Assembly: GCA_000965745.1 (NCBI GenBank) | Contig: CP009479.1 | Location: forward strand, 1,622,457 to 1,686,456 | Source of the DNA: an uncultured archaeon | GTDB taxonomy: Archaea > Thermoplasmatota > Thermoplasmata > Thermoplasmatales > Thermoplasmataceae | Direction: 5' to 3' | DNA length: 64,000 nt | Shown: positions 8,300 through 48,710 of the stretch, in pieces | Numbering within the stretch: position 1 is the stretch's first letter | Layout of the letters: every line of letters starts with the position of its first letter | Notes under the pieces: generated by a model | Told to the model about the DNA's origin: nothing | Databases searched by the model: none | Seen by the model: the letters and a program-made list of their open reading frames with translations, nothing else | Position numbers and translations under genes: made by a program

Positions 8300-8795
8300 A
8301 CACAGAATTAGGGGAAAAGTCTGGATTCTTGGCGACAACGTCGACACTGACCAGATCATACCGGCGAGGTACCTGGTAACTGCAGAGCCCGAAAAACTTG
8401 CGCCACACTTCATGGAAAATACGATCCCGGGTCTTGCATCGTCCATATCCCGCGGCGACATAATTGTAGCCGGCAGGAATTTTGGGTGTGGCTCAAGCAG
8501 GGAACATGCCGTGAGGGCCATTCAGGGGTGTGGCGTCAGCCTGGTAATTGCTAAGAGCTTTGCACGGATATTCTTCAGAAATTCCATTAACCTGGGGCTT
8601 CCGGTTATTGAAGCTGATATATCTGTTGTTGAAGGGGCTGAAGTATCCGTTGACATGGAAAAAGGGACCATTGCGCATGGTCCGGAAACGACTAAGTTCG
8701 AGAAATACCCGGAATTCCTGAAAAAGATAGTGGATAGTGGGAGCATCATAAACTATGCCAAGGAGGAGTTGTTACGCCAGCAGTCGCAGTCATAG
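8292..8795 (+). CDS. leuD: 3-isopropylmalate dehydratase, small subunit
   Basis: The swivel subunit of isopropylmalate isomerase works with LeuC. Typical motifs are GDNVDTDQIIPARYL at the N-terminus and GRNFGCGSSREHA, the substrate-binding loop. It has 167 residues, normal for the family. The start is TTG at 8292, inside the end of leuC, placing the conserved DNVDTDQI at the expected distance. Its 3' end contains AAGGAGGAG, which serves as the ribosome site for leuB. Confidence 0.93.
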   Translation: MPEHRIRGKVWILGDNVDTDQIIPARYLVTAEPEKLAPHFMENTIPGLASSISRGDIIVAGRNFGCGSSREHAVRAIQGCGVSLVIAKSFARIFFRNSINLGLPVIEADISVVEGAEVSVDMEKGTIAHGPETTKFEKYPEFLKKIVDSGSIINYAKEELLRQQSQS

Positions 8796-9844
8796 AGGGG
8801 GACGGGATTGGCCGTGAGGTGATACCGGCAGCAACTGAATGCATAGATCACATCACAGGCGGATCGATTGAATATGTGAAATACGGAGCATCTTCTGAGA
8901 GGTATATCCGGGAAAGCACTCTGATAACGGAAAATGAAATGGAAGAGCTCAGAAAAATGGATGCAATTTTATTCGGGGCGATCGGGGACCCGAGGGTGAA
9001 ACCCGGAATAATGGAAAGAGGTGTAATTCTCAGGCTAAGAAGAGAACTTGGCCTTTTTCTGAACCTGCGCCCCGCAAGGTCCCTGCCTTTTTCCAAATTT
9101 GACATGAATATTGCCATTGCAAGGGAAAACACTGAAGAGTTTTACATGGGTTTCGGGGGAAAGATTGACGAAGGCGGGTCGAAATTCCTGCATAGAAGCA
9201 ATGCATGGTCCGGTGAGCTAGAAGTTTCAGGCAGTTCTGACGACGATTTGTACTTCAATCTCGGGGTAATGAGCAGAAAAAACCTGGAAAGATTTTTCAG
9301 AAAGGCCCTGTCATTCAAGCAAGCAAATGAGGGCAAGGGTGTAACTGTAGTGGACAAGGCAAATGCTGTAACCGGCCTTTACGAGATCTGGAGGGAAGTG
9401 GCCGGAGAAGAACTTGCAAAAGCTGGCATAAAGCCTCATTTCATGTATGGGGATGCAGTCGCATATGATCTTGTCATGGACCCTTCAAAATTTGGACTCA
9501 TCATGGCTTCCAACCTCTATGGGGATATCCTGTCAGATCTCTGTGCTGGTATGATCGGTGGCCTGGGATTTGCCCCAAGTGGAAGCTATGGACTGGGGAA
9601 AGTGGCACTTTTTGAGCCTGTACATGGAAGCGCTCCCGATATCGCGGGAAGAGGCATAGCCAACCCCATTGGCGCCATACTGTCAGGGGCCATGATGCTG
9701 GACCATCTTGGTATGAAGGAGAAGGGCCAGGCCCTGGAGGAGGCAGTCGGATTAGCTGTGCAGGACGGAGTAATGACCCATGACATAGGTGGAAGTGACG
9801 GCACGAAGAGAGTGGTTGCATCGGTCGTGAAACATCTTCCATAA
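8774..9844 (+). CDS. leuB: 3-isopropylmalate dehydrogenase, apparently with a near-cognate start
   Basis: It oxidises and decarboxylates 3-isopropylmalate to 2-oxoisocaproate with NAD. Motifs are VIEGDGIGREV at the N-terminus, the substrate arginines in LRLRRELGLFLNLRPAR, AREN(T)EEFYMG, the aspartate-rich YGDILSDLCAGMIGG, and EPVHGSAPDIAG. The frame has a stop at 8735-8737 and no ATG, GTG or TTG until GTG 8819, which would remove the essential GDGIG strand. AAGGAGGAG (8760-8768) sits 5-7 bases ahead of GTT 8771 / ACG 8774; I place the start at ACG 8774 tentatively. An assembly error at this spot is the main alternative. The coding region overlaps the end of leuD. Confidence 0.88.
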   Translation, partial: TPAVAVIEGDGIGREVIPAATECIDHITGGSIEYVKYGASSERYIRESTLITENEMEELRKMDAILFGAIGDPRVKPGIMERGVILRLRRELGLFLNLRPARSLPFSKFDMNIAIARENTEEFYMGFGGKIDEGGSKFLHRSNAWSGELEVSGSSDDDLYFNLGVMSRKNLERFFRKALSFKQANEGKGVTVVDKANAVTGLYEIWREVAGEELAKAGIKPHFMYGDAVAYDLVMDPSKFGLIMASNLYGDILSDLCAGMIGGLGFAPSGSYGLGKVALFEPVHGSAPDIAGRGIANPIGAILSGAMMLDHLGMKEKGQALEEAVGLAVQDGVMTHDIGGSDGTKRVVASVVKHLP

Positions 9845-15518: not shown

Positions 15519-15531
15519 CCCTTTTTTTAAC

Positions 15532-15801
15532 AAAATTGAGCGGAAAATCCCCTTCCGAAAGGGAGGGGATGAAAGCGAAATCTTTTCCTACTTTCCAGAA
15601 ATAACACGCGGCTCACCAGCAGACAGAATGGAAGAAGGGTCGGATAACGTGTAGCTCCATGCGTTCCTGTGTCCGTAAAGTCGAATGGATTAGTGTGGAG
15701 GGCAAAGTACCCCCGGGCCGGAGGGAATTCATGCCTGCGGAGGTTCCGCTGGTAACCGTCGAAGCAGGAAGCCCCTTTCGAAGGATAGGGGAGGAGGTCA
15801 C
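15532..15801 (+). mobile_element. Non-autonomous IS200/IS605-type element, copy 1
   Basis: This 270-bp segment is nearly identical to the copy at 46076-46344 and shares both ends with the inverted copy at 58140-58381. It is preceded in every copy by TTTAAC, the presumed insertion target. The left end starts AAAATTGAGCGG and forms a hairpin (CCCCTTCC, GAAA, GGGAGGGG). The right end (GAAGCCCC...AGGGGAGGAGGTCAC) forms the hairpin typical of TnpB-carrying IS605 elements. No transposase is present, so it is a deletion derivative (MITE/PATE). The last 150 bases are an open frame resembling the tnpB 3' end/omega-RNA scaffold. It lies 76 bases ahead of the NnrS-like gene, same orientation. Confidence 0.75.
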
Positions 15802-31708: not shown

Positions 31709-33009
31709 GGTTCATCCTAGAATTGTGTGGGTATTTTTATCCTTCTTTTCATTATATTTCCCATGCAGGATGCTGAACAGTTGTACTCCGAGCTCTTAGG
31801 GCTCAAGAACCCTTGGAGGGTGAGAGTGTTTCACTTGATTCAAATGACAAGGTTGTTGAAGTCTTCATAGCACACGACAGGGGAGCTAAGCTCCCATGTC
31901 CCGAGTGCAGGAGGGAGTGCATGGTCTACGATCATCTGAGGGAAAGGGTCTGGAGGGATCTTGACAGCATAGGGTTCAAGACATTCATTCATGCCAGATC
32001 ACCAAGGATACAGTGTCCGGAGCATGGCATAAGAGAGGCGGTCATGCCCCTCTCCGAGAAGAGATCAAGGTTCACTCTCAGATTCGAATCAAGATCCATA
32101 AGGATGCTCCAGAACATGGATGTTGAGAATTTCACCCGGGTAATGGACATTTCCTGGAGCCGGGCATGGAACATCATCGATCATGCGGTTAAGAGAGGAC
32201 TGTCAAGGAAAACATCAAGGCCAAGGATCATAGGCGTTGATGACAAATCGTACAGGAAGGGGCACAAGTACATCACGCTGGTGATGGACATGGAGAACAG
32301 CGGTGTTGAGTTCATCTCCATGGACAGGAGGAAATCATCACTCGATGAGTATTACAAAACGATGAGTGATGATGAATTATCTCGCATAGATGCGGTATCA
32401 ATGGACATGTGGGATCCGTACATATCATCCACGCTTGAGCATGTACCACAGGCTCATTCAAAGATCGTCTTCGACAGGTTTCATGTCATGCGCCATGTGA
32501 ATGAAGCGGTTGATGCGGTGAGGAAGGAGGAGAATCGTGAACTGGTGAAGAAGGGTATCATGGACCTCAAAGGATCAAGGTACATATGGCTCTATTCCGG
32601 CGATCGCCTTCCCGAAAGGTACAGGGAGCGGTACAATGAGCTAAGGAATTCAGATCTAAGGACGGGCAAGGCGTACTCCATGAAGGAGAACATAAGGAAC
32701 CTGTGGAATCTCCCCTCAATGGAGGATGCAATGGATTACTGGAAGAGATGGCACTCCTGGATCGTGCACTCCTCGATTGATGCAATGAAGAAGGTGGCGA
32801 AGATGATGCGAATGCACATCGACAAGATACTGAACTATTTCATCCACAGGATAACAAACGCAAAGGCAGAGGGAATCAATTCAAAGATCGCGCTGATAGA
32901 GAAGATGGCGTATGGATTCAGGAACAGAGGCCATCTCAAGACAGCAATATATTTCAAATGCGGAAATCTGGAGCTTTATCCATGAGCCCACACAAAACTA
33001 GGAAGAACC
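31709..33009 (+). mobile_element. ISL3-family insertion sequence with 8-bp target duplication
   Basis: The element is 1301 bp. Its 23-bp terminal inverted repeats match at 20 positions: left 31709-31731 (GGTTCATCCTAG...TGTGTGGG), right 32987-33009 (complement GGTTCTTCCTAG...TGTGTGGG). It is flanked by perfect direct repeats AATTATTA at 31701-31708 and 33010-33017, the 8-bp duplication expected for ISL3. This proves transposition into an A/T-rich spacer between the ABC operon and the cupin gene at 33041. The intact duplication indicates a recent event. Confidence 0.95.
31764..32985 (+). pseudogene. ISL3-family transposase with an early frameshift
   Basis: The main frame (open from 31813, 390 residues) has the ISL3 zinc-finger region CPECRRECMVYDHLRERVWRD...CPEHG. 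The DDE domain follows: GVDDKSYRKGHKYITLVMD, SMDMWDPYI, and the terminal NAKAEGINSKIALIEKMAYGFRN. The family-typical N-terminus (QLYSELLGLKNPW) is encoded from ATG 31764 but in another frame; a +1 shift near 31815-31825 would join them. Either a one-base indel has damaged the gene, or translation starts in the short form, or a frameshift is used. The zinc finger and catalytic core are otherwise whole. Confidence 0.8.
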
Positions 33010-43856: not shown

Positions 43857-45200
43857 TTAATTTGCCACTATTTCCTCCTTATAAGTCTCCTTGATGAAGA
43901 ACAGAGCCATCAAAGCCACAATGTTCAGTCCGGCCATAAGCAAGCCAATGTATGGCCAGGCATGCGAAGGACCATGCAGAAGGGACAGAATAGCGGGAGC
44001 TGCCACAGCTGTCACAAGACCGGCGAGCAGCTGCCCAAAGTTGTAGCTCAAAGTCACCCCGGAATACCTGACCCTTGAGGCAAACTGTTCAGCGAACAGG
44101 GAAGCCACTATGGCTATCTGTACACTGGCAGTTCCGTACATTATGATTTCGTCAATTATCAGCAGGGGCAGCGTCGGTTTCACCGATAGGATGTACAGAT
44201 ACGGAACGGACCATATGATTACGAGAATCATGCCCAGCCTCATAGCTAAAAGCCTGCCTTTCCTGTCCGCAAGCTGTCCCGCGAAGACCTTGATTATTAT
44301 GCCGACAATGGCAGCAATACCGAGGGCAAAAAGCGCATAGATAGGCGACAATCCCTGGCTTGCAATAAAACCTGGCGTGAATGCAGCCAGTTCAAATATT
44401 GCACCTGCTGAGGCCGCCTGAACAACCATCAGAACAATGATTTCCTTCCAGTGCGATTTAAAGACCTTCAGTGCAGGGAGGCTCTCTGTTCTTTTAGTTT
44501 CCTGAAGTTCCGAGAATATCTTAGTATCGGTGATCTTGAGGCGTATGATCAGGGCAGCAATTATTCCAAGTGCCCCTATGTAAAAGAGTATTCTCCATCC
44601 CTGAGTGAATACATAACTGTGAGGAAGAGAGGTGATCATGAAGAACAATATCAATGCAGGGGCTGTAACGCTTGCGGATTGTCCTATGCCAAGTGCGCTT
44701 CCCCACAAACCTCTTCTCTTTGATTTGGCAGCACTCTCCACGATCCATGCTCCATCCCCGACCATTGTTCCAATACCCATTCCTGCAATGAACCTGAAGA
44801 CTATCAGCAATATGATACTGGTCACTCCCAGAACGGAGAAGCCAGGGAGCAAAGAAATGCCTATTGCACCTGCTGCAGTGGTACCTAATGCAACTGCACC
44901 GACATTTCTCCTGCCACTTGTATCTCCATACTGGCCGAATATGAAAGCTCCGATAATTCCAGCCACATACCCTACTACATACGTGCTGAGACCCAGAAAC
45001 AGGCCCAGATCAGGCGCTACGCTAGGAAAAAACAGACTCGGCCATATTATACCGGAAACAAGTGCAGATGCTATGTTGTTGTAGTTGTGGAAAAATATGC
45101 TGACGAAAGACCCTCCAGTCGTTCTCCACGTACTGCTGTACTTATACTTTTCAGTTCGCCCACTATCAAAGGCGTCCCCGGAAACATCCTGATTTTTCAG
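43857..45200 (-). CDS. MFS carboxylate/aromatic acid:H+ symporter, apparently with CTG start
   Basis: The frame encodes 447 residues with 12 hydrophobic segments when read from CTG 45200. The N-terminal segment (FFHNYNNIASALVSGIIWPSLFFP) is the normal first helix of metabolite:proton symporters. It is followed by the motif-A loop GQYGDTSGRRNVG and GMGIGTMVGDGAWIVES. In frame there is no ATG, GTG or TTG between the TGA at 45207-45209 and GTG 44966, which would delete helix 1. GGTGA (complement of 45207-45211) sits six bases before CTG 45200. The likely substrate is an aromatic acid of this island. Confidence 0.82.
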   Translation of the reverse strand: MKNQDVSGDAFDSGRTEKYKYSSTWRTTGGSFVSIFFHNYNNIASALVSGIIWPSLFFPSVAPDLGLFLGLSTYVVGYVAGIIGAFIFGQYGDTSGRRNVGAVALGTTAAGAIGISLLPGFSVLGVTSIILLIVFRFIAGMGIGTMVGDGAWIVESAAKSKRRGLWGSALGIGQSASVTAPALILFFMITSLPHSYVFTQGWRILFYIGALGIIAALIIRLKITDTKIFSELQETKRTESLPALKVFKSHWKEIIVLMVVQAASAGAIFELAAFTPGFIASQGLSPIYALFALGIAAIVGIIIKVFAGQLADRKGRLLAMRLGMILVIIWSVPYLYILSVKPTLPLLIIDEIIMYGTASVQIAIVASLFAEQFASRVRYSGVTLSYNFGQLLAGLVTAVAAPAILSLLHGPSHAWPYIGLLMAGLNIVALMALFFIKETYKEEIVAN

Positions 45201-45995: not shown

Positions 45996-46075
45996 TTTCA
46001 TAATCCGATCAGGATCATATCTGCATTGGAAGATCCTGTTAGCCTTCAAAACATTCTTTATAAATTCAATTTAAC

Positions 46076-46344
46076 AAAATTGAGCGGGAAATCCCCTTCC
46101 GAAAGGGAGGGATGAAAGTGAAATCTTTTCCTATTTTCCAGAAACAACACGTGGCTCACCAGCAGACAGAATGGAAGAAGGGTCGGATAACGTGTAGCTC
46201 CATGCGTTCCTGTGTCCGTAAAGTCGAATGGATAAGTGTGGAAGGCAAAGTACCCCCGGGCCGGAGGGAATTCATGCCTGCGGAGGTTCCGCTGGTAACC
46301 GTGGAAGCAGGAAGCCCCTTTCGAAGGATAGGGGAGGAGGTCAC
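46076..46344 (+). mobile_element. Non-autonomous IS200/IS605-type element, copy 2
   Basis: A 269-bp copy differing from copy 1 at only about ten positions. It is preceded by TTTAAC and ends in GGAGGAGGTCAC. Both terminal hairpins are intact. The TATA box of cydA (about 46355-46363) begins 11 bases after its right end, so the element directly abuts the promoter of the cyd operon. Its open frame is fused in phase to cydA, which can mislead gene prediction into an N-terminal extension of 98 residues. No transposase is encoded. Confidence 0.8.
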
Positions 46345-46405: not shown

Positions 46406-47770
46406 ATGATTCCAATGGATCTTTTTGACAGGTTTCTGTTCGCCTTCACAATAGGTTCCCATATAATCCTGGTGACTATGAGCATAACTCTGATAGTTCT
46501 TATTTCTGCATCGGAGTTCATCGGTACCCGGAATAACAATTCCTACTACATGGCTCTCTCAAGGAGGCTTACCAAGGTCTTTGTTGTTTCGTTCGGAGTC
46601 GGGACTGCCAGCGGAATTGTCATGGCCGTGGAGCTTGTAAACCTGTTCCCCGGTTTTATGACATTGGTTTCCAAAACAGGTGTAATAGCCCTGTTTTATG
46701 CTGAGGTTTTCGCCTTTTTCCTTGAGACAATGGCCCTGGTTATCTATGTATATTACAGAAATGCGTTCAAGGGGAAATACACCCACTGGGTCATATCATT
46801 GTTTGTAGGTGCGGGGACAATAGGCTCTGCTGTTTTCATAACGATGGTGAATGCCTGGATGAACAGCCCCAACGGATTCAACATACCCTTGTATGTATCT
46901 TCCGGCACTCTTTCTTCAATAAATCCATGGGCCCCCTTCATCACGCCCACAACACTTGCACAGGTGGCACACGTCATAACAACAACGATATTCACCGGTT
47001 CGATGTTTATAGGCGCATATTTTGCCCTTAGGTATATCAGGACTAAAGACCCTGATGAAAAGACATTCTTCAGGGGCGGCCTTAAGCTGTCCGGAGCAAT
47101 GTCAATAGTTTTCATAATTCTTTCAGGCCTTACCGGGAGCCATGAAATGGGCACTCTTCTTGTGAACCAACCGTTAAAGTATGCTGCACTGGACCTGAAC
47201 CTGCATCCCGGGTCAGGGATGCCTGAAAGGCTCTTCGGCTACCTGGTCAACGGCCAGTTTGTCGGAGGGCTGGAAATTCCCAATATCCAGGCTCTCCTCG
47301 CACAGTTTGAGACTGGGATTAGCTACCTCCCCGGCCTTCTCCAGTATCCCCAGACGGATTGGCCTCCTCTATGGGTTCACACAACATTCGACATCATGGT
47401 TACAGGAGGGCTACTTCTTGGCCTGTTCCTGTTCATTTACTTTGTTATGTGGGCAATGAAGAAGAAACCATACGAGAAAAGATTCATTCTTTACGGGCAG
47501 GGAGTGCTTGGTGCTGCATCTTTGATCGTGTACGAACTGGGGTGGATCACTGACGAGGTTGGAAGGCAGCCCTGGATTGTCTACAACGTCATGAGGGTAA
47601 GTTCTGCAGCTAACTACACTACCACTCTGCTTGTTCCGGGGCTGTTCATAGTTGCATTCTATATCTTCCTGATTCCCGTAACCTTCTACTTCTTCTCGAG
47701 GGTATTCAACGGAACTCCGCTTTCGGTTGAATTGAAGAAAGGTTTTGAAGAAGGGGGTGTGAACTATTAA
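46406..47770 (+). CDS. cydA: Cytochrome bd-type quinol oxidase, subunit I
   Basis: A 454-residue membrane subunit with about nine helices. It starts RFLFAFTIGSHIILVTMSI, with the helix-1 His expected to bind a heme, and contains HWVISLFVGAGT, TGSHEMGTLLVNQPLK, HTTFDIMVTGG and GWITDEVGRQPWIVY, the last a strong CydA signature. The quinol-binding Q-loop is short, as in archaeal CydA. The start at ATG 46406 is 45 bases after a TATA box, which lies just beyond the transposon relic. The enzyme reduces O2 to water at the membrane without pumping protons. Confidence 0.92.
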   Translation: MIPMDLFDRFLFAFTIGSHIILVTMSITLIVLISASEFIGTRNNNSYYMALSRRLTKVFVVSFGVGTASGIVMAVELVNLFPGFMTLVSKTGVIALFYAEVFAFFLETMALVIYVYYRNAFKGKYTHWVISLFVGAGTIGSAVFITMVNAWMNSPNGFNIPLYVSSGTLSSINPWAPFITPTTLAQVAHVITTTIFTGSMFIGAYFALRYIRTKDPDEKTFFRGGLKLSGAMSIVFIILSGLTGSHEMGTLLVNQPLKYAALDLNLHPGSGMPERLFGYLVNGQFVGGLEIPNIQALLAQFETGISYLPGLLQYPQTDWPPLWVHTTFDIMVTGGLLLGLFLFIYFVMWAMKKKPYEKRFILYGQGVLGAASLIVYELGWITDEVGRQPWIVYNVMRVSSAANYTTTLLVPGLFIVAFYIFLIPVTFYFFSRVFNGTPLSVELKKGFEEGGVNY

Positions 47771-48710
47771 CGGCATATTTTTCATAAATTTCTTCGTTTT
47801 CTCAATATTCGCTGCCCTGCTCATAACCGAGCTGATGGGATCAGTACTCCTTCTCCTCTTCTGGAAAGCTTCAAGCAAGAGGGTCCTGGATTACATAGTG
47901 CCAATCTGGGAAGTGACGGGCACCTTCGGTGCTTTCTGGGTAGTTATCACCGATTTCGCATTTCCCAACATACTCATTCCTGCCTCAAAGCTGTATGCGG
48001 TCGCACTAATGCTGTTCCTGATCCTGTTCGTAGCCAGAAATTCCACGATAGTGTTCGGGGAATACATCATAAAGAAACGCTGGCTCGACCATAAGAAATT
48101 ATACCAGATGTACTCGCTTTCAACAATTGCACTGGGGATAATAGCACTGACAATATTCTCCTCAATAATCAGCGGCAGCGGAATAAACATCGAGGCCGGA
48201 TATTTCTCAGTCCCACAGTGGATAGGTTCCGCGGGAAGCATACCTTTCATTCTTGGCGCCCTTCTGATAGGTGTTGGGCTCGCACCCGTATTCTATGGGC
48301 TGCACCCGTTCAGGAAGATTACCCTGCCGGTAACGGCTGCTGGCGTTGCACTCTCTTCCATTTCATTCTACTTTTCCTCTCCTGGCCTGGTAACTCCTCT
48401 GATTGCTGTTCCCATAGTCCTGACCATTCTTGTCCCGGTACTGTTCATGTATCAAAAGACTGCTGCACTTGTTTCCAACAAGCTTGTATTCTCCATTGTC
48501 GCGACTGCAATACTCTTTTCAATGAGCTTTCTCGTGTACCCGACAGCTTTCGGGAGAACCCTCAATGTGGATGACTTCACTACATCCGGGCCGATGTCTG
48601 GAGCTTTCCTGATAATCACAGCAGTAGGCGGAATCATGCTGGCAGTGATGGTCTATTTCTATCTAGTTGCGGTCAAGAGATCTCAGCTCGCCAGGGAACC
48701 TGCAGCTTGA
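47766..48710 (+). CDS. cydB: Cytochrome bd-type quinol oxidase, subunit II, apparently with ATT start
   Basis: A 314-residue subunit with about eight helices; DYIVPIWEVTGTFGAFWVVITDFAFP is the conserved CydB loop. In frame, the stop TGA at 47760-47762 is followed by no ATG, GTG or TTG until ATG 47835, which lies after the first helix (NFFVFSIFAALLITELMG). ATT 47766, six bases after GGTG and overlapping the cydA stop, would restore the full first helix. It pairs with CydA to form the oxidase. Confidence 0.88.
   Translation: MNGIFFINFFVFSIFAALLITELMGSVLLLLFWKASSKRVLDYIVPIWEVTGTFGAFWVVITDFAFPNILIPASKLYAVALMLFLILFVARNSTIVFGEYIIKKRWLDHKKLYQMYSLSTIALGIIALTIFSSIISGSGINIEAGYFSVPQWIGSAGSIPFILGALLIGVGLAPVFYGLHPFRKITLPVTAAGVALSSISFYFSSPGLVTPLIAVPIVLTILVPVLFMYQKTAALVSNKLVFSIVATAILFSMSFLVYPTAFGRTLNVDDFTTSGPMSGAFLIITAVGGIMLAVMVYFYLVAVKRSQLAREPAA

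Follow-up and report, generated by a model that had tools for sequence, protein, structure and literature searches.

The cydA-cydB junction

The window, that is, the whole stretch of 64,000 nucleotides that we analyzed (G000:C1:1622457-1686456), comes from an archaeal genome of 2.23 Mb in one contig whose nearest named relatives are Thermoplasmata MAGs. It contains adjoining genes for the two subunits of a cytochrome bd oxidase, cydA and cydB, and two further genes, a leuB-like gene and a gene for an MFS transporter, with proposed starts at codons that differ from ATG by one base (Table 1). Archaeal genome annotation presumes that genes start with ATG, GTG or TTG. In the frame of cydB there is no ATG, GTG or TTG from the TGA at 47760 to ATG 47835, which is the first standard start in that frame and lies 23 codons past ATT 47766. 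Positions 47750 to 47780 read GAAGGGGGTG TGAACT ATT AAC GGC. The in-frame GTG at 47757-47759 cannot start cydB because the TGA comes straight after it. The ATT begins exactly 6 nt past the GGTG of the Shine-Dalgarno-like (SD) sequence, and it puts a codon one base off ATG at the homologous start position, where relatives have ATG or TTG. An earlier, sequence-only reading of this DNA had pointed to the six-base spacing and to the lack of a standard cydB start before 47835, and both were verified in the sequence. It had also taken ATT 47766 to be the sole start-like codon. This ATT is the best placed one, but ATA 47775 and others are present as well.

Just 5' of cydA, at 46070-46344, a dispersed element some 275 nt long artificially lengthens the listed cydA ORF. 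The element occurs again at 15526-15801 of the window; L147 and L159 have copies that are 94-97% identical, and two other genomes, G015 and G010, have weaker ones. We found no Rfam match to it; a MITE is one possibility, an IS-derived RNA end another. The window also contains a gene for an ISL3-family transposase (DDE_Tnp_ISL3) at 31813-32985.

Table 1. Coordinates, in the window, of the cydA-cydB junction and of two other genes with proposed near-cognate starts
Feature	Position	Strand	Remarks
cydA, cytochrome bd oxidase subunit I	46406..47770	+	Likely start ATG 46406, stop TAA 47768-47770; Pfam PF01654, E 3.9e-87; translation
Shine-Dalgarno-like GGGGGTG	47753..47759	+	GGTG at 47756-47759; genomic 16S 3' end CTGCGGATGGATCACCTC; GAGGTG at that place in Thermoplasma relatives
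In-frame TGA that shuts the cydB frame	47760..47762	+	TGA also in G015 and L243
ATT, proposed start of cydB	47766..47768	+	Homologous to ATG in L010, L011 and L227-L229 and to TTG in L012; ATT also in G015/L002
ATTAA, 5 nt shared by the cydB start and the cydA stop	47766..47770	+	Stop of cydA at +2 wherever cydB has ATT, at -13 with ATG and at -4 with TTG (one genome)
cydB, divergent cytochrome bd oxidase subunit II, 314 aa	47766..48710	+	PF02322 co-linear; adjoins cydA
leuB-like isopropylmalate/isocitrate dehydrogenase	8774..9844	+	Proposed start ACG 8774-8776 after AGGAGG 8761-8766; leuD stop TAG 8793-8795 inside
MFS transporter	43857..45200	-	Proposed start CTG 45200-45198 after GGTGA 45211-45207; Pfam MFS_1

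The amino terminus and identity of CydB

The sequence-only reading placed the coding sequence of the first CydB helix 5' of ATG 47835, and ortholog identities, codon usage and a co-linear profile agree with this. The 23 codons ahead of that ATG give 13-18 identities per 24 positions with orthologs that are 48-63% identical overall, and they rate as coding by codon usage. They also lie under the Cyt_bd_oxida_II Pfam profile, which is co-linear with the protein and whose position 6 corresponds to CydB residue 5 (in a match below the family cut-off). Asn2 is invariant among the 12 aligned CydB orthologs. As the first standard start codon in frame, ATG 47835 could still be where cydB begins, giving a protein without its first 23 residues. 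We consider this very unlikely: the upstream codons are conserved and look coding, the ATG has no SD ahead of it, and a start there would cost the protein most of its first membrane helix.

The CydB family here is divergent, and CydB therefore falls below the curated cut-off of PF02322 (17.1 bits against 35.6; E 0.0038), in a match that is co-linear over 296 of 302 positions. PF02322 likewise matches 8 of 12 CydB orthologs, co-linear along their full length, with a best E of 9.8e-06. The gene is adjacent to and co-directional with the PF01654 gene at 46406-47770.

The cydB start in relatives

G015, the nearest relative, has a CydB that is 58% identical and an identical GTG-TGA-ACT-ATT. The same TGA-ACT-ATT at this level of divergence makes a sequencing error very unlikely. 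In Thermoplasma-type genomes (L010, L011, L227-L229, L253 and L254), GAGGTG is followed after 6 nt by ATG and then AAT or AAC, and the cydA stop is 13 nt upstream of the cydB ATG; L012 has TTG AAT, with a TGA at -4. This genome and G015 keep the SD and its spacing but have ATT AAC after it, and the cydA stop is shifted to +2.

The reading frame upstream of the ATT depends on a valine codon of cydA. In relatives the base after its GT is T, C or G, so that the cydB frame reads TTA, TCA or TGA there. The TGA means that nothing 5' of the ATT is read as CydB in this genome or in G015. Most of the other relatives with ATT have a cydB frame that is open to a GTG three codons upstream, and in the GC-rich MAGs L236, L237, L240, L241, L245 and L248 that codon is ATG. 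In most relatives this in-frame GTG or ATG leaves the ATT ambiguous and no independent proof of initiation there. We therefore do not count the ATTs of about 14 relatives as proof, and ATT is forced as the cydB start, judging from the frames, only in this genome and G015. Among the genomes with GTG at -3, we counted 17, and in all of them the penultimate codon of cydA ends in T (30-60% is usual). This favors retention of the ATT, but we do not take it as proof: the genomes are related, and a conserved Ile4 in CydB could have the same effect. The T-ending codon is compatible with ATT in use or with a conserved isoleucine.

It could be argued that cydB still starts at the GTG at 47757, by readthrough or skipping of the TGA after it. 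Most relatives have this GTG in frame, the GC-rich ones have ATG in its place, and L243 likewise has GTG-TGA, while the codon where its cydB would start by homology is not a near-cognate one. However, the Thermoplasma relatives have GAGGTG-TGA-AAC and then a plain ATG, which indicates that the GTG belongs to the SD, and we saw no other signs of UGA readthrough. We regard initiation at this GTG as very improbable.

Two relatives have other arrangements. In L243:1954 (cydB of JASHPO010000054.1) the sequence is GTG-TGA-ACC-TTT-AAC; the cydA stop is again at +2 (TTTAA), and TTT at the homologous start position is neither a standard nor a near-cognate codon. In L252:1934, the cydB of a GC-rich MAG, CTG occupies the start position and overlaps cydA as CTGA; the closest upstream standard start is 125 codons away.

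Proposed near-cognate starts of other genes

The ACG of leuB and the CTG of the MFS gene, each with an upstream SD, are both present as the sequence-only reading claimed. The leuB ACG is found also in G032/L032 (59% identity; GGAGGGGTTAAT ACG), seven more distant orthologs (L033-L039) have ATG or GTG exactly at the ACG site, and the ACG residue corresponds to Met1 of 1x0l in an alignment to solved enzymes. By this comparison, the proposed ACG start of leuB is confirmed. The G015 ortholog of the MFS gene (73%) has TTG with GAGGTGAT at the matching place. The CTG start is only plausible because we looked for a second close ortholog and did not find one.

Our survey of start codons took in samples from three genomes: 864 kb from this one, 753 kb from G015 and 800 kb from G010. 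We sought near-cognate starts both by ortholog comparison and by a codon-usage scan. The near-cognate count is a lower bound, since the scan is blind to any gene in which a standard codon occurs within 22 codons. SD use is weak throughout this genome, which makes a pure SD-to-codon enrichment count uninformative.

Four more genes in this genome look near-cognate. A tyrA-like gene (L154:12868) has ATT straight after TAA at a position where 10 orthologs have ATG, 2 have TTG and 1, from Thermoplasma, has CTG, and it matches the NCBIfam prephenate dehydrogenase family from position 2. In queC (L154:7802), an ACG in an 8-nt overlap with the upstream gene corresponds to residue 1 of QueC structures, and the PP-loop precedes the first standard codon of the gene. 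The ACG of arsB (L146:12147) aligns without gaps to a TTG in G015. The ATA start of aroB (L103:10828) is less certain. The Thermoplasma tyrA (L301, in G005) has its CTG after GGGTGAT, where other relatives have ATG; neither the 70 codons upstream nor the 18 downstream contain a standard start.

Several candidates were not counted. We put the permease gene in L105, together with fragments in L155 and L091, down to frameshifts; L091:15695 (IMPase) could start at a TTG; and a PIN-domain-like gene (L098) and an ABC gene (L177) were left out as uncertain. The L105 gene (16322-17590, minus strand) encodes an amino-acid permease and is frameshifted at a GGGGGG run. A gyrA-like gene (L155:11971) and other fragments (L091:4263) appear to be similarly split; the assembly thus has indels or pseudogenes.

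Such defects lend something to the view that sequencing or assembly errors hide standard starts at cydB, leuB and the MFS gene, which we nonetheless hold to be extremely improbable. TGA-ACT-ATT in G015 and the leuB ACG in G032 come from separate assemblies with less than 60% protein identity. A change of the cydB ATT to ATG would remove the cydA stop. Finally, if errors had produced about 7 substitutions in 1,800 start-codon bases, stops should interrupt many genes, which we did not see. The argument of the sequence-only reading that these codons are not random error therefore holds for the cydB ATT and the leuB ACG, which recur in relatives; homologs place the start at just these positions.

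Frequency of proposed near-cognate starts and the initiation machinery

Of the 599 genes sampled in this genome, about 7 (1.2%) look near-cognate. G015 has at least 3 of 514; its cases are the ATT of cydB, an ATT at L186:6696, a likely CTG in a DUF3800 gene (L191) and an ACG in an MFS gene (L176). In G010 we found no clear near-cognate starts among 541 genes. The difference between this genome and G010 gives p = 0.016 with the window's cases included, and that between this genome and G015 together (10 cases counted) and G010 gives p = 0.036. Outside the window the count is 4 of 552 (0.7%), which is not distinguishable from G010 (p = 0.12). Because the window was chosen for its cases, a fair rate is about 0.7% (0.2-1.8%). 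Cases in four of the seven genes (cydB, leuB, queC and tyrA) are at an overlap or straight after an upstream stop, and the MFS gene, arsB and aroB are apparently without gene overlap. Most of the seven have a good SD.

These counts bear on the possibility that some change in initiation has globally relaxed start selection both in this genus and in the sister genus, g16, with near-cognate starts spread over the genome. The excess over G010 and the variety of codons (ATT, ACG, ATA and CTG) speak for it. Against it, the rate outside the window does not differ significantly from that in G010, and single near-cognate starts occur elsewhere too, as in the Thermoplasma tyrA and the cydB of L252. We also checked three parts of the machinery: aIF1 is present and ordinary in sequence, the anticodon stem of the initiator tRNA is intact (GGG/CCC), and the 3' end of 16S rRNA has the usual canonical anti-SD. 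Thus, none of these three was found to be missing or divergent, and the initiation-factor differences that the sequence-only reading proposed are unsupported as far as tested. It had also suggested relaxed starts as a pattern of the whole genome: more cases do exist (tyrA, queC, arsB and aroB), but their rate outside the window does not set this genome apart from G010. Overall we think global relaxation unlikely, and the evidence for a lineage-wide shift in start codons is at most suggestive. A narrower version would have the two sister genera start about 1% of their genes, cydB, leuB, tyrA, queC, arsB and aroB among them, at ATT, ACG, ATA or CTG through a lineage-specific relaxation, with ATTAA a maintained overlap that sets the subunit ratio; this we find similarly doubtful.

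A proposed mechanism

We conclude that cydB in this archaeon very probably starts at ATT 47766. We postulate that initiator Met-tRNA would start cydB at this AUU, and that ribosomes ending cydA at UAA 47768 would terminate on top of the cydB start, where the GGGGGUG SD 6 nt upstream would hold the small subunit and allow reinitiation on the overlapping AUU. The other near-cognate starts would reflect the same tolerance of starts that are one base off, in about 1% of genes, rather than altered initiation factors. We give this account a probability of roughly 0.78. The best reading of the seven genes is that near-cognate starts are tolerated locally, aided by SD sites and, in four of the seven, by termination-reinitiation.

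For cydB there is a local reason to keep T at the third position of the start codon, namely the overlap. Every stop codon begins with T, so a start that shares its third base with an upstream stop must end in T. The third base of the AUU must stay U, since the cydA stop begins with it, and the codon cannot revert to AUG without the loss of that stop. Overlaps of 5 nt have been ruled out unless the start is ATT (PMC3887535, PMC10666635). The junction has just such an overlap, -5 nt in phase 1, at ATTAA 47766-47770, and the cydA stop is at +2 in all the relatives with ATT. Translational coupling of overlapping pairs has been demonstrated in Haloferax (PMC6728339). The overlap, the SD and the membership of both products in one complex would fit a termination-reinitiation pair, and we infer that the ribosome uses the AUU, that cydA and cydB are coupled and that the codon is locked. 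Besides the ambiguity of ATT in most relatives, two considerations count against the AUU. L243 has TTT at the homologous place after its GTG-TGA, and ATT in E. coli has about 0.3% of the efficiency of ATG (Hecht 2017, as quoted in PMC10666635), which is low for a respiratory subunit. Coupling and the SD together could offset a weak start codon.

If these starts are used, core metabolic genes would be truncated or misplaced under the ATG/GTG/TTG rule, as the cases placed by homology suggest. The same cases offer concrete sites for probing near-cognate initiation in archaea, and the ATTAA junction offers a natural, conserved instance of a 5-nt overlap deemed impossible with standard starts.

Comparison with known systems

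Non-standard starts are known from bacterial genes. infC of E. coli, which encodes IF3, starts at AUU (PMC5472188), as we propose for cydB. Whereas infC is a bacterial initiation-factor gene in an IF3 feedback loop, cydB encodes an archaeal respiratory subunit and its AUU overlaps a stop. Since aIF1 is ordinary, there is no reason to assume that an autoregulation of the infC type, through IF3 or aIF1, acts on the cydB start. Streptomyces sigR has a GTC start that is repressed by IF3 (PMC5472188). Like cydB, it has a non-standard start, lies beside a partner gene and was missed by annotation. In contrast to the cydB ATT, which comes from sequence, the sigR start was shown experimentally; it is regulatory, uses another codon and has no such overlap of stop and start.

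The closest parallels in gene arrangement are the termination-reinitiation pairs of archaea and bacteria with overlaps of -4 or -1 nt (PMC6728339, PMC10666635). These pairs share with cydA-cydB an overlapping stop and start, an SD within the upstream gene and products that are subunits of the same complex. The cydA-cydB overlap differs in being -5 nt (ATTAA), a class described as impossible unless the start is ATT (PMC3887535, PMC10666635) and so far put down to annotation error or rare starts. In the literature on archaeal near-cognate starts we found one inferred ATT, that of the tubulin gene atubA of Asgard archaea (Kariarchaeaceae) (PMC13394414). As with cydB, amino-terminal homology and a suitably spaced ribosome site pointed to the ATT, but atubA is a single gene and an overlap with an upstream stop was not described. 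The near-cognate starts are a real phenomenon, known in kind and rarely documented in archaea, and the cydA-cydB junction is a structurally neat instance.
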